From assembly GCF_003711805.1 (NCBI RefSeq), contig NZ_QXCP01000006.1:124001-188000 (forward strand): DNA of 64,000 bases. Direction: 5' to 3'. Numbering within the stretch: position 1 is the stretch's first letter; the number at the start of each line of letters is the position of its first letter. The translations under genes were made by a program, and so were the position numbers. Shown one piece after another: positions 56,098-62,324 of this stretch. The stretch comes from Brachybacterium sp. EE-P12. Its GTDB lineage: Bacteria; Actinomycetota; Actinomycetes; Actinomycetales; Dermabacteraceae. A model generated the notes under the pieces. It was not told the DNA's origin and made no database searches. It saw nothing but the letters and a program-made list of their open reading frames with translations.

Positions 56098-56125
56098 TTG
56101 TGATTGCGTTCACAGACGGTAGTCT
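56098..56125 (+). promoter_or_regulatory. promoter of the IETNP repeat gene
   Basis: TTGTGA (56098-56103) and TAGTCT (56120-56125) with a 16-base spacer form a fair sigma-70-type promoter about 57 bases before the GTG start at 56183. The leader contains GAGAGGAA as a ribosome binding site. Confidence 0.55.
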
Positions 56126-56182
56126 GGTACCTGCGGGCGCCCCCTCCCCGCTACCCCCGTCGCCCCCGAGAGGAACCGTCCG

Positions 56183-56536
56183 GTGATCAGCTCCCGTCCC
56201 AGCCATTCCGAGAACTCCCCCCGCATCGCACGTGCGGGTCGTGCGGCGAGGTTCGCCGCGGGTCTCCTGTTCGCCGGCGCCCTCGGCGTCGCCGGTGCCG
56301 GCGCCGCCGCCGCGATCGAGACGAACCCGCAGAAGATCGAGACCAATCCTCTGATCGAGACCAACCCTCTGATCGAGACGAATCCGCAGAAGATCGAGAC
56401 GAACCCGCTCAAGCGGATCGAGACGAACCCGCTCAAGCGGATCGAGACGAATCCCCAGCGGATCGAGACGAACCCTCTGATCGAGACGAACCCTCTGATC
56501 GAGACGAACCCTCTGATCGAGACCAATCCGCTGTGA
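56183..56536 (+). CDS. secreted tandem-repeat protein made of IETNP units
   Basis: A 117-residue protein with an N-terminal Sec-type signal (basic RIARAGRAARF, hydrophobic AAGLLFAGALGVAGAGAAAA). Its mature part is entirely eleven tandem copies of IETNP with short linkers: L, QK, QR or LKR. The chain ends exactly on a unit (IETNPL). No Cys, aromatic residues or LPxTG anchor are in the repeat part. I recognise no family. The GTG start is supported by a promoter and ribosome binding site, and a strong terminator follows, so it is a free-standing expressed gene. Possible roles (surface filament, peptide precursor, ion or wall binder) are speculation. Confidence 0.85.
   Translation: MISSRPSHSENSPRIARAGRAARFAAGLLFAGALGVAGAGAAAAIETNPQKIETNPLIETNPLIETNPQKIETNPLKRIETNPLKRIETNPQRIETNPLIETNPLIETNPLIETNPL
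56317..56533 (+). repeat. in-gene tandem repeats, 18-24 bp units
   Basis: Eleven units beginning ATCGAGAC encode IETNP. They come in 18-base (IETNPL), 21-base (IETNPQK/QR) and 24-base (IETNPLKR) sizes. Some neighbours are identical (the two 24-base units; three consecutive 18-base units), others differ only at synonymous positions, suggesting recent duplication and loss. Confidence 0.9.
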
Positions 56537-56556
56537 CCCGCAGCTGATCCAGGACC

Positions 56557-56586
56557 ACGGCCGGCGCCCACCAGGGCGCCGGCCGT
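56557..56586. terminator. bidirectional terminator after the IETNP gene
   Basis: A 13-base perfect inverted repeat ACGGCCGGCGCCC (56557-56569) / GGGCGCCGGCCGT (56574-56586) with a 4-base loop, between two convergent genes. Confidence 0.85.
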
Positions 56587-56613
56587 CGTCGTGCCGTCCG
56601 CCGTGCTGCGAGC

Positions 56614-59169
56614 TCAGCGGTCCGCCATGTCCCCCACGTGCGTGATCTCCAGGACCGGCTCCCCGGCCTCGTCGGTCGCCTCGAGGTCCAGCTCCGCCTC
56701 GATCGCCCAGTCGTGGTTGCCGTCCGGATCGTCGAGCACCTGGCGGATGCGCCACAGCCGCGACTCCTCGGTGATCTGCAGCAGCTGCGGGGAGCGGGCC
56801 GGGCCGTCGATGCCCACCTCGTCGTAGGTGTCGTAGTAGGCGTCCATCGCCTCGGCCCAGCGCGGCCGGTCCCATCCTGAGGCGCCGTCGAGCTCGGCCA
56901 GGCGCTCCTCCCGCTCGAAGGCGAAGTGCTCCACGCGCTGCCACATCGCGGCCCGCACCATCGTGCGCAGCACCTTCGTCTGGGCGGACAGCCCGCGCGG
57001 CGTGGTGGGGCGGATCTCGGAGGCGCCGTCCTCGTGGTCCTCCGGATGGGTCAGCGCCTCCCACTCGTCCAGCAGCGAGGAGTCGATCCCGCGCACCAGC
57101 ACGCCGAGCCACTCGATCATGTCCTCGAGCTCCTCGGTGCGCAGGTCCTGCGGGACCGTGCGCCGCATCGCCTGGTAGGCGTCGGAGAGATAGCGCAGCA
57201 CGATCCCCTCCGAGCGCTGCAGGCCGTAGCGCTGCACGAACTCGCTGAAGGTCTGCCCGGTCTCGTGGATCTCACGCACCACAGACTTGGGGGAGAGATC
57301 CTCGGCCCGCACCCAGGGGCGGGTGCGGGCGTAGATCTCCAGGGCCGCCTCGAGGTCCTCCTCGAGCGGCTTCGGCCAGCTCACCTCGTCCAGGCGCGCC
57401 ATCCGCTCGGTGTACTCCACCCCGTCGGCCTTGAGCTCGGCGAGCAGCTCACCTCGGGCGGCGTTCTGCTGGGCGAGCAGGATCTGGCGGGGGTCCTCGA
57501 GGATCGCCTCGAGGATCGAGACGGTGTCGAGGGTGAGGGTCTCGGAGGACTCGTCGAGCGAGTCGATCATCGCGATCGCGAACGGGGCCAACGGCTGGTT
57601 CATCGTGAAGTCGAGCTGGAGGTCCTCGACCAGGGCGAAGCGCCGGCCCAGATGGTCCGCCTCCTGCCGTGTCTCGATGATCTCCGCCTCGCGCAGGCCG
57701 CGGAAGATCTCCACCGCCTCTCGCACGAGCTTCAGCTTCTGCGCGCGGGTCTGGTGGCTGGTCATGATCAGGTGGCGGCCCGCGGCGATCGCGTCCCCGG
57801 GCCGGGCGATGAGGGCGAGCACCATCGAGGGCGTGATCCGCAGGTGCGGGCGCAGCGCCTCGGGCGGGTTCTCGACGAGCTTGGTGAGGTTCTGCTCGGA
57901 CCAGCTCACCGCGCCCTCGGGGATCCTCGGCTTCGGCTCCTTCTTGCGCTTCTTGGCGCTGTTCGGCGCCTTGCCGGCCTCCTCGCGGGCCCGCTGCTTC
58001 GCCCGCTCCCGCTCGAACTCGATCGTCCACGTCGGCGCCTGGACCACCACGTGCCCCACGGTGTCGTAGCCGGCGCGCCCGGCGCGTCCCGCGATCTGGT
58101 GGAACTCGCGCGCGTTCAGCAGCCGCATGCGCTTCCCGTCGAACTTCGCCAGGCCCGTCAGCAGCACGGTGCGGATCGGCACGTTGATCCCGACGCCGAG
58201 GGTGTCGGTGCCGCAGATGACCTTGAGCAGCCCGGACTGGGCGAGCTTCTCCACGAGCCGCCGGTACTTCGGCAGCATGCCCGCGTGGTGCACGCCGATC
58301 CCTTCGCGCACCAGACGGGAGAGGATCTGCCCGAAGCCCTTGGAGAAGCGGAAGTCGCCGATCAGCTCGCGGATCCGCTCCTTCTCCTCGGCGGTGAGGA
58401 TCTTCCCTCCCTGGAGGGCCTGCGCCTGCTCGAGCGCGTCCTTCTGCGTGAAGTGGACGATGTAGACCGGGGCGTCGCGGTCCTCGAGGATCGTCGTGAT
58501 CGTCTCCGGCAGCGGCTCGAGCGACCAGCGGAAGTCCAGCGGCACGGGGCGCGGGGCGTCGTCGACCACGCTCACGTCCCGCTCGGTGCGCTCTTCCAGG
58601 TCCTCGACGAAGAAGGTCACGTCCCCGAGGGTCGCGCTCATGAGCACGAACTGGCAGTGCGGCAGCTCCACGAGCGGCACCTGCCATGCCCAGCCGCGCT
58701 GGGAGTCGCCGTAGAAGTGGAACTCGTCCATCACCGCGAGGCCCACGTCGGAGCCCGGGCCGTCGCGCAGGGCGTGGTTGGCGAAGATCTCCGCGGTGCA
58801 CACGATGATCGGGGCGTCGTGGTTCACCGCCGAGTCGCCGGTCATCATCCCCACGTTCTCGGCTCCGAACTGGGAGACCAGGTCGAAGAACTTCTCGCTC
58901 ACCAGCGCCTTGATGGGTGCGGTGTAGTAGGAGCGCTCCCCGCGGGCCATCGCCGCGAAGATGGCGGCGTAGGCGATCGTGGTCTTGCCCGAGCCGGTGG
59001 GGGTCGCGGCGATCACGTGGTCCCCGGCCGCGATCGCGAGCAGCGCCTCCTCCTGGTGCGGGTAGAGGCTGCGGCCCACGGCCTCCTGCGCCGCGATGAA
59101 GCCGTCGACGATGGCGTCCTGGGCGTTCTCGGCGGTGCGCGGGGGCAGGAAGGGCGTCAGGCTCGGCAT
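56614..59169 (-). CDS. Ski2-like DEAD/DEAH-box helicase with DUF3516 domain
   Basis: An 851-residue superfamily 2 helicase. Motifs: ATPTGSGKTTIAYAA (Walker A), VMDEFHFYGD (DExH-type, here DEFH), LMSATLGD, and VHHAGMLPKYRR with the QIAGRAGRAGYD motif VI. The C-terminal half fits DUF3516, common in actinobacterial homologues. It probably acts on RNA; the exact substrate is unknown. The start at 59169 is favoured over upstream ATGs because a CAGACT -10-like element ends 6 bases before it on this strand (leaderless pattern). Confidence 0.88.
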   Translation of the reverse strand: MPSLTPFLPPRTAENAQDAIVDGFIAAQEAVGRSLYPHQEEALLAIAAGDHVIAATPTGSGKTTIAYAAIFAAMARGERSYYTAPIKALVSEKFFDLVSQFGAENVGMMTGDSAVNHDAPIIVCTAEIFANHALRDGPGSDVGLAVMDEFHFYGDSQRGWAWQVPLVELPHCQFVLMSATLGDVTFFVEDLEERTERDVSVVDDAPRPVPLDFRWSLEPLPETITTILEDRDAPVYIVHFTQKDALEQAQALQGGKILTAEEKERIRELIGDFRFSKGFGQILSRLVREGIGVHHAGMLPKYRRLVEKLAQSGLLKVICGTDTLGVGINVPIRTVLLTGLAKFDGKRMRLLNAREFHQIAGRAGRAGYDTVGHVVVQAPTWTIEFERERAKQRAREEAGKAPNSAKKRKKEPKPRIPEGAVSWSEQNLTKLVENPPEALRPHLRITPSMVLALIARPGDAIAAGRHLIMTSHQTRAQKLKLVREAVEIFRGLREAEIIETRQEADHLGRRFALVEDLQLDFTMNQPLAPFAIAMIDSLDESSETLTLDTVSILEAILEDPRQILLAQQNAARGELLAELKADGVEYTERMARLDEVSWPKPLEEDLEAALEIYARTRPWVRAEDLSPKSVVREIHETGQTFSEFVQRYGLQRSEGIVLRYLSDAYQAMRRTVPQDLRTEELEDMIEWLGVLVRGIDSSLLDEWEALTHPEDHEDGASEIRPTTPRGLSAQTKVLRTMVRAAMWQRVEHFAFEREERLAELDGASGWDRPRWAEAMDAYYDTYDEVGIDGPARSPQLLQITEESRLWRIRQVLDDPDGNHDWAIEAELDLEATDEAGEPVLEITHVGDMADR

Positions 59170-59261
59170 GTCCTCAGTCTGCCAGGGACCTGCGCGGGGC
59201 CGGGTCGCACTAGCCTCGGCACCCCGGGCGGCCACCGCGCCCGGCCGACGGAAGGATGCCG

Positions 59262-59519
59262 ATGCCCGCACGACGCTCCGAGGACCCCGCCCTCACCGAG
59301 GCCGAGAAGCGCGGCGAGGGCGCGCACGAGCACTGGGACGAGGCGACCCGCGCCGCGGCCCGCCCCGCCCCGCTCGGGCGATCGTTACCCGATCGTGACA
59401 ATACAGAACGGCGGGCCGCCGGTGCCGCCGGTGACGAGATCGAGGATTCGTCCATGGCCTGTGAGGATGAGGGGTCGTCGCAGGGGGCCTCCGACGGTCA
59501 GGAAGCTACTGACCGGTAG
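59262..59519 (+). CDS. small hypothetical ORF, possibly a truncated gene
   Basis: An 85-codon frame. The first about 40 codons (MPARRSEDPALTEAEKRGEGAHEHWDEATRAAARPAPLG) have strongly coding-like third positions and a GGAAGG site 6 bases before the ATG. A TAGCCT -10 sits at about 59211. After that (about 59380 on) the sequence becomes richer in A/T and third-position bias collapses. It may be the front of a gene whose rear was lost, or a short real gene. No homology is recognised. Confidence 0.35.
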   Translation: MPARRSEDPALTEAEKRGEGAHEHWDEATRAAARPAPLGRSLPDRDNTERRAAGAAGDEIEDSSMACEDEGSSQGASDGQEATDR

Positions 59520-59665
59520 CGCGTCTCGTCGTCGGCGAATCGGGCAGATGCGGACGACGGGGAACTCTCGGGCGGGGTGACCTCCGTCACGTGGCATAGC
59601 GTGCCGTCACGGCCCTGCGGGGTCGTCATCCCCACCCCCGTGCCCTCCCCTCGAAAGGCATCACC

Positions 59666-60604
59666 GTGACGCACTCCACCGTTCTGCGACGCTGCACGAG
59701 ACTCCTGGGCGGCGCGGCCCTCGTCGCGGGCCTCGCCGTCGGCGGCGCCGGGGCCGCCACCGCCGACGGCCCCGACGCCGAGCGCACCGCCTTCTCCGGC
59801 GCCGCGCAGTCCGAGGCCCACGACTACTGGACCTCCGACCGCATGGAGGCCGCCGTCCCCGCCGACGACCTCGCCCCCGAGGGCACCCCTTCGGGCACGG
59901 ACGTCGAGCAGGGCGAGCCCTTGACCGTCCAGGGCGCCGCCCCCGATGCCGCGACGACCCCGCGCGCCGCCGCAGCCGCGAAGGACACCGTCGGCAAGGT
60001 CTTCTTCACCCAGGGCGGCCAGGACTACGTCTGCTCCGGCAACGCCGTCGCCTCCGAGAGCGGCTCGACCGTCTCGACCGCCGGCCACTGCGTGAACGAG
60101 GGCGGAAGCTGGGCCACCAACTGGGTCTTCGTGCCCGGCTACGACCACGGCGACGCCCCCTACGGCACCTGGGCCGCGACCGATCTCGTCTCCACCGACC
60201 AGTGGGTCTCGAACGAGGACATCAACTACGACGTCGCCTTCGCGACCGTCCAGCCCGAGAGCGGCAGCGGCACTCTCGAGTCCGCCGTCGGCACCACCTC
60301 GATCGCCTTCAACCGTGAGCGCGGAGCGCACTACACCTCCTACGGCTACCCGGCCGGCGCACCCTTCGACGGCGAGTCCCTCGAGACCTGCGAGGGCACC
60401 GCGAGCGACGACACCCTCGGAGGCACGCTCTCCCAGGGGATCCCCTGCGACATGACCGGCGGCTCCTCCGGCGGGCCCTGGTTCCTCGGCGACGGGGCGC
60501 AGAACTCCGTGAACAGCTTCGGCTACGACACCCAGTCGAACGTCATGTACGGCCCGTACTTCGGCGCCGAGGCGCAGGCCGCCTACCAGGAGGCGGCCGC
60601 CTGA
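59666..60604 (+). CDS. secreted trypsin-like serine protease
   Basis: A 312-residue exported peptidase of the S1/V8 type. A Sec signal is visible (LLGGAALVAGLAVGGAGAATA), then a propeptide-like Ala/Asp-rich region up to about residue 105. The catalytic triad fits His in STAGHCVNEGG, Asp in NYDVAFATV and Ser in DMTGGSSGGPWF. Four cysteines could form two disulfides (VCSGN/GHC; LETCEG/IPCDM). It starts at GTG 59666 after GAAAGG. It is a single gene ended by a strong hairpin. Confidence 0.92.
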   Translation: MTHSTVLRRCTRLLGGAALVAGLAVGGAGAATADGPDAERTAFSGAAQSEAHDYWTSDRMEAAVPADDLAPEGTPSGTDVEQGEPLTVQGAAPDAATTPRAAAAAKDTVGKVFFTQGGQDYVCSGNAVASESGSTVSTAGHCVNEGGSWATNWVFVPGYDHGDAPYGTWAATDLVSTDQWVSNEDINYDVAFATVQPESGSGTLESAVGTTSIAFNRERGAHYTSYGYPAGAPFDGESLETCEGTASDDTLGGTLSQGIPCDMTGGSSGGPWFLGDGAQNSVNSFGYDTQSNVMYGPYFGAEAQAAYQEAAA

Positions 60605-61623: not shown

Positions 61624-61793
61624 GGGGCGCGGATCCTCGGGGTCGGGGGCGGGCTCATCCTCGCACGCGGGCGGCGGACGGTTCCTCCCCGACCCCGTCC
61701 CGTCCACAACCGGCGCCGAGGCATCGCGCGGGGCCCGGCGCGGACCCTAGCGTGCTGGGACACCGCCCGACCGATCTCCTCGAAGGAGCCCCG

Positions 61794-62324
61794 ATGACCG
61801 GCATCGACTTCGACTGCACCTGCTGCGCGACGACCCACTGCGGCACCGACGGGACCCGGGACCGGCCCTGGCCCGTGCTCGGCTTCCACCGTCCCGATCC
61901 GTATCTCGCCCTCTCGCCGCAGGAGCTGCGTGACTGCGACGCCACCGACGACGCGTGCTGGATCGCCCGGCCCGACCGCACCGACTTCTTCGTGCGGGCG
62001 AAGATGCCGATGCCGATCCGGGCGGACCCGCTGCGACGGCTGGACCACGAGCCGTGGGTCCGCATCGGCGAGGACGACTTCGTGGACATCCTCAGCCACA
62101 TCGAGGACGACGCCTACCGCGCCGAGTACGCGGGGCATCTCGCGACCGCCCTGCCCGGCTACGAGGACACCGAGGGCGTGCCCGTGCTCGTGCGCAGCCA
62201 GGGCCATCTCCGCCCGGTCGTCGTCCCGGATCCCGCGGTCGAGCATCCGCTGGTGCGCGACGTCCACGAGGGCATCACCCGTGAGGAGGCCGAGCTGCGG
62301 ATCCGCTCCTTCCTGCTGCGCTGA
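61794..62324 (+). CDS. DUF2199 domain protein
   Basis: A 176-residue soluble protein. The N terminus FDCTCCATTHCG resembles the metal-binding-like Cys motif of DUF2199, followed by family-like segments YLALSPQELRDC, DDACWIARPDRTDFFVRAKMPMPI and EDDFVDILSHIEDD. Its role is unknown. The start has AAGGAG 7 bases upstream; a possible -10 TAGCGT lies at 61748-61753. It is divergent from the glycosylase-like gene and convergent with the enoyl-CoA hydratase gene. Confidence 0.78.
   Translation: MTGIDFDCTCCATTHCGTDGTRDRPWPVLGFHRPDPYLALSPQELRDCDATDDACWIARPDRTDFFVRAKMPMPIRADPLRRLDHEPWVRIGEDDFVDILSHIEDDAYRAEYAGHLATALPGYEDTEGVPVLVRSQGHLRPVVVPDPAVEHPLVRDVHEGITREEAELRIRSFLLR

Follow-up and report, generated by a model that had tools for sequence, protein, structure and literature searches.

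How does a short gene come to encode a protein that consists, behind its leader, of a single repeated motif, and what could such a protein do outside the cell? The gene that raises this question, here named REP, lies at 56183..56536 (+) of the window, the whole 64-kb stretch of Brachybacterium DNA that was analysed, and encodes 117 aa between a GTG start and a TGA stop. Its reality as a gene is supported by a family profile match and by pN/pS across the repeat units. A ribosome-binding site, GAGAGGA, precedes it at 56168..56174 (+) and reads GAGAGGA or GAAAGGT in relatives. Residues 1-44 (56183..56314, +) have the appearance of a Sec-type signal peptide, ending in ...AGAGAAAA, and their N-terminus is related to that of the neighbouring protease gene, named PROT (59666-60604). 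The mature protein, residues 45-117 (56315..56533, +), comprises eleven IETNP units followed, in order, by QK, L, L, QK, LKR, LKR, QR, L, L, L and L; TRF places the array at 56314-56523. The original prediction of a secreted protein made of IETNP repeats only is borne out by this reading frame, which holds a predicted signal peptide, the eleven units and nothing else, and from which secretion itself is deduced. Between REP and the convergent gene downstream, a perfect 13-bp G+C-rich hairpin at 56557..56586 (no strand assigned) forms a probable terminator. The whole region containing it, 56534-56610, folds at -48.3 kcal/mol (z -4.86), and no T run follows the stem.

With one genome sampled per species, a search with a 15-sequence profile detected members of the REP family in 19 of 38 Brachybacterium genomes. 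Four sampled genomes of other genera of the same family gave no match, and elsewhere among 297 genomes of the order only repeat-only matches in other proteins appeared; exact tandem IETNP was absent outside this genome across 395 genomes of the class. In all 19 genomes REP adjoins the 3′ end of one and the same gene, a conserved DEAD-like helicase located at 56614..59271 (-) in the window. At 12 loci inspected in REP-less genomes no degraded or re-typed repeat gene was seen. The gene of a DUF2199 protein (61752-62324) is also syntenic with the helicase and REP genus-wide. As had been supposed, no described family corresponds to these proteins: the best Pfam match had E 0.32, the best PDB match E 0.24, NCBIfam returned none, and a literature search on the repeat motif found no paper using it. 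The search for IETNP-type proteins in related genomes, proposed as a check on the prediction, thus revealed a conserved family whose unit number varies between species, and these relatives, together with a conserved promoter of its own, confirm that REP is a genuine free-standing gene and not a fragment. Judged by its sequence, REP is a member of an undescribed family, defined by a signal peptide, a mature part made up of [VI][EQ]xNP units alone, and a place at the 3′ end of the helicase gene. Further candidates were set aside, namely a single weak Nonomuraea hit in the plasmid search, with xxxxxP hexads in an unannotated reading frame, which was taken as chance, and a second-repeat candidate in G016, which proved to be an out-of-frame HRHIATSP repeat. 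An open frame with WYL-type regulator-like sequence in a metagenome-assembled genome (L058 in G232 MAG) contains VETNPE and TTQPDTTQP repeats, possibly a matter of assembly or low complexity.

The family unit is [VI][EQ]xNP[QWL], present in 3-13 copies per protein and occurring as VEVNPQ, VEINPQ, VEVNPW, IQGNPQ and IETNPQ/L. Position 1 is V/I, position 2 E or Q, position 3 V/I/T/G and position 6 Q/W/L, while among the 122 units of the 19 proteins N occupies position 4 in 117 and P position 5 in every one. This position-wise conservation, position 6 included, makes the natural unit a hexapeptide and not a pentapeptide with linkers; the repeat was recognised correctly in the original prediction, but the Q/W/L residue that completes the unit was counted as linker. 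Mature chains, 26-85 residues in length, have a unit at their very start in 18 of 19 proteins and usually another at their very end, and no other domain was found in the mature chains of the 19 genomes. Spacing between units ranges from 6 to 13 residues and linkers from none to 8 residues, with no common site. Across most of the 19 relatives one unit runs straight into the next (VEINPQVEINPQ...), or else F, W, Y, A or a six-residue spacer stands between them. Variable spacing suggests that the units act as separate motifs. The basic linkers of the window's protein had been proposed as periodic protease sites, an idea that does not survive the comparison: with direct abutment or varied linkers in most relatives no dibasic site is conserved, and the 19 proteins share no conserved processing site.

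The array is predicted to be disordered, AlphaFold2 giving it no structure (pLDDT 38.7), although with a shallow alignment of repeats this is weak evidence for disorder. That result, the spacing and the length of the mature chains also speak against the earlier suggestion of charge spacing in a surface filament. A period of six with an aliphatic residue at position 1, E/G/Q at position 2 and N at position 4 is reminiscent of hexapeptide beta-helix repeats. Many REP spacers preserve the six-residue register, and the units might stack as a surface polymer or as a small beta-solenoid of the left-handed, beta-helix-like hexapeptide kind. This is nevertheless very improbable, as the invariant Pro at position 5 would cost each rung a backbone NH, spacing is off register in the window's REP and in others, some proteins have as few as 3 units, and the AlphaFold2 model, with the reservation on alignment depth just given, is without strands and lends the solenoid no support. 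Sortase-type or membrane anchoring was rejected because the REP chains, most of which finish on NPQ/NPW/NPL, carry no C-terminal sorting signal. A RiPP precursor was likewise rejected, since the conserved neighbours are nar genes, the helicase, the protease, DUF2199 and one unassigned protein, with no modification enzyme.

That the units nevertheless matter is evident from their evolution. Unit against unit, the REP array has pS 0.475 and pN 0.000 at positions 1-5, and by the same comparison within each array pN is 0.000 in 12 of 19, with pS 0.18-0.71. The units of one array are alike in type, and the type changes from clade to clade: VEVNPW units are found in G006, G023 and G033, VEINPQ units in G004, G025, G058 and G059, IQGNPQ units in G007, and IETNP units in the source genome (G000) and, alongside IEANP, in its sister G012. 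Every one of the nine units of G022, which is related to G004, has CAG (Gln), the first and last included, where the sister species has GAG (Glu) at nine of nine. The DNA of the last unit in G022 is otherwise identical to that of the last unit in G004, and synonymous differences among the units were kept despite the concerted Glu/Gln switch. Uniform amino acids combined with synonymous diversity indicate selection for, or conversion toward, identical motifs and imply that the sequence matters as peptide; every REP unit is under strong amino-acid constraint. The array could in principle be a slippage-prone, nearly neutral repeat without function on a duplicated protease leader, given that tandem repeats arise easily and that REP is missing in half of the genus, probably after several losses. 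With pN about 0 and pS up to 0.7 across units in those 12 arrays, with amino-acid switches that are concerted while synonymous diversity is kept, and with promoter and ribosome site conserved, such an origin has next to no credibility. Active copy-number change, as originally suggested, holds in part. Some neighbouring units are identical in DNA and species differ in number (11 units in REP versus 5 in the nearest relative), but most REP units have diverged synonymously, showing that the array is not freshly expanded.

The REP promoter, consisting of TTGTGA (-35 like), a 16-nt spacer and TAGTCT (-10 like), is located at 56098..56125 (+), and in relatives its position is kept and its sequence largely kept (TTGTG...GGTATTCTGG). 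The gene had been credited with its own promoter and terminator. The former stands by virtue of this conservation, although a generic sigma-70 scan at REP found no promoter, and the latter is probable, as its perfect stem has no T run. Overlapping the -35 element at 56099..56114 (no strand assigned) is a candidate Crp/GlxR-like operator, TGTGATTGCGTTCACA, a perfect match to TGTGAN6TCACA, which is the Crp-type consensus (PMC5449483) and occurs twice in the 3.96-Mb genome. The overlap suggests that bound regulator would repress REP. The only other perfect match, outside the window at G000:C4:209863-209878, precedes an aminotransferase gene (EctB/DoeD-like) and a peptidase-like gene (DoeA-like), and its sequence context suggests an ectoine-type operon under the same regulator as REP.

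A similar module is found before PROT at 59577..59602 (+), where an operator, GTGACCTCCGTCAC (59577-59590), is separated by a 6-nt gap from the -10 element TAGCGT (59597-59602). Within the 64-kb window GTGAN6TCAC occurs only at 56100 and 59577. The full pattern GTGAN6TCACN6TANNNT, drawn up from the REP and PROT sites before the genome was scanned, occurs in the 3.96-Mb genome exactly twice, before REP and PROT, against 0.15 expected from base composition, and is absent from a reversed control. Of 14 protease promoters inspected, 11 keep the operator palindrome of PROT unchanged. At L075, L076 and L078-L081 a second palindrome, TGACCGnnCGGTCA, resembles a repressor operator and precedes the Crp-like site of PROT by about 30 bp.

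PROT (59666..60604, +) is a predicted secreted pre-pro serine protease of trypsin fold (Pfam Trypsin_2 E 4.9e-7; PDB 3wy8 E 4e-68, 3cp7 E 1e-66), 3.1 kb from REP across the helicase gene; elsewhere it lies directly upstream of REP (nar-PROT-REP), as in nine genomes, or across the helicase. The gene context originally described was right for REP itself and overlooked the promoter, leader and linkage that it has in common with this protease. In 12 of the 14 genomes with both genes the PROT N-terminus is the next-best genome-wide match to the REP profile (E 1e-4 to 1e-9; 1.2e-5 in this genome), a homology that covers a short and biased region. The secreted trypsin-fold proteases NAALP/AL20 (3cp7) and 3wy8 are homologous to PROT, whose type of leader and promoter REP carries; these proteases are catalytic, whereas REP is without a catalytic domain. 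The PROT pro-region in G028 holds PAVEVNPQA and the REP unit of the same genome is VEVNPQ; for VEVNPQ in PROT pro-regions 6e-6 exact matches are expected, and none of 20,000 shuffled sets contains one. The exact motif is found in this one pro-region and as VEVDPQ in one more (G014), and is not conserved in PROT pro-regions.

In a helicase tree of 30 genomes, a single group of 22 (support 82/62) holds all the REP genomes together with four that lack REP; PROT is also present beyond this group. The simplest reading of these data is that PROT is older and that REP arose once inside Brachybacterium, after PROT, and was then lost a few times, although at 82/62 the support for a single-origin clade is weak and several losses are needed. 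From the related sequences REP probably derives from the 5′ end of PROT (promoter, leader and perhaps the pro-region motif), and common descent alone could account for the promoter and leader that they have in common. PROT is linked to REP in 14 of the 19 REP genomes, in two of which it is broken, and is absent in five, and genus-wide the two genes do not co-occur significantly (Fisher p 0.10 counting any PROT, 0.33 counting intact PROT). In G023 (L073) and G059 (L083/L104) an intact repeat gene accompanies a broken protease gene. REP has pN 0 in G025, G015, G059 and G023, where PROT is absent or broken, so that REP does not depend on PROT only.

The explanation that we tentatively prefer, while rating it a little below even, is that REP is a secreted, natively unfolded array showing many copies of one short linear ligand motif. 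REP would have emerged inside Brachybacterium from the 5′ end of the neighbouring secreted serine protease gene, and the two would be transcribed from the same kind of promoter, from which we propose that they reach the medium together and that REP synthesis is timed with exoproteolysis. The unit [V/I]-[E/Q]-x-N-P-[Q/W/L] would act as the ligand of a partner on the cell surface or beyond it, and might work intact on the chain or once clipped by exoproteases, with many identical copies per chain raising dose or avidity, as multi-copy peptide precursors and multivalent decoys do. The proposal brings together a real family at a fixed position, constraint on every unit, the common promoter module, the related leader and the predicted disorder.

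In free-standing propeptide-like protease inhibitors, a segment resembling a pro-region has a gene separate from that of the protease, from which it may derive. REP is likewise separate, pro-region-like and possibly protease-derived, but consists of a motif array without a folded pro-domain. One may therefore consider REP a trans-acting inhibitor or decoy substrate of the co-expressed PROT, perhaps of other exoproteases too, in which the NP motif, poorly cleaved because of its proline, occupies the substrate cleft and many copies provide capacity. The promoter module, the related leader and the linkage of REP and PROT, the VEVNPQ in one pro-region, and NP-hexads between the N-terminal and catalytic domains of unrelated subtilases would all fit. 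The motif is however not conserved in PROT pro-regions and REP is constrained (pN 0) in the PROT-less G025 and G015, and we regard this role as unlikely. A model of the G028 pre-pro-protease, bearing on whether VEVNPQ enters the active site, had pLDDT 31, and no literature on the cleavage specificity of PROT homologues was found among open papers.

Yeast alpha-factor is a multi-copy peptide precursor in which a signal peptide is followed by tandem near-identical short peptides, of variable copy number and with uniform units. REP has the same layout, with units uniform within the chain, but is bacterial and lacks conserved processing sites. A literature search for a multi-copy bacterial pheromone precursor found nothing relevant. 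As a more specific form of the ligand array, exoproteases might cut REP to NP-hexapeptides that are sensed or imported, the clade-specific units conferring specificity. Units that are identical inside a clade but differ from one clade to the next, chains that start and stop on unit boundaries, variable copy number and the absence of anything else in the chain agree with such a pheromone precursor, as do the tandem near-identical short peptides behind a signal peptide. Against it, the direct junctions Q|V, W|V or L|I and the variable spacers leave no constant cleavage site between copies, and the conserved locus has no receptor or transporter gene; this too is doubtful.

The search of the order and a repeat-only profile run against 396 genomes of the phylum found NP-hexad arrays outside REP mainly in one protein class, subtilases encoded in sigma/S8/TPR-CHAT operons, a context that matches group ECF54 (PMC8999054). 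Like REP, these subtilases have tandem NP-hexads, exact tandem IETNP included; in the seven inspected, FIETNP, LIETNP, FIATNP, YQGNPA, YQANPA and YQGNPG hexads in 4-9 copies always lie between the N-terminal and the catalytic domain. Arrays of IETNP, IATNP and YQGNP types are conserved in the subtilase linkers at L114-L117 and L120-L122 of other Actinomycetota. In these subtilases, however, the array serves as a linker within a protease that is apparently cytoplasmic, whereas REP is secreted as a protein of its own and has no enzyme attached. The REP locus has no sigma factor, subtilase or TPR-CHAT gene, the motif alone being common with the ECF54-type system. Possibly the linker is a CHAT cleavage or inhibitory segment, and possibly the hexads of REP and of the subtilases arose by convergence. 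Because both settings involve proteases, the NP-hexad deserves study as a protease-linked module. One may speculate further, though with distinctly little expectation, that an exoprotease gene gave rise to its own co-expressed substrate, that the many identical NP-hexapeptides set free from it by proteolysis outside the cell are a clade-specific signal that proteolysis is under way, and that NP-hexads are a wider protease-linked module found in CHAT-associated subtilases as well.

If the ligand reading is true, REP would provide a compact genetic system built on a secreted protein that is a single ligand motif repeated, with a sequence that changes in concerted fashion from clade to clade, and its partner, specificity and origin would become accessible. 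The dedicated promoter common to REP and a secreted protease is an obvious place from which to start, and the occurrence of NP-hexads in subtilases of sigma/CHAT operons suggests an unrecognised protease-linked module.
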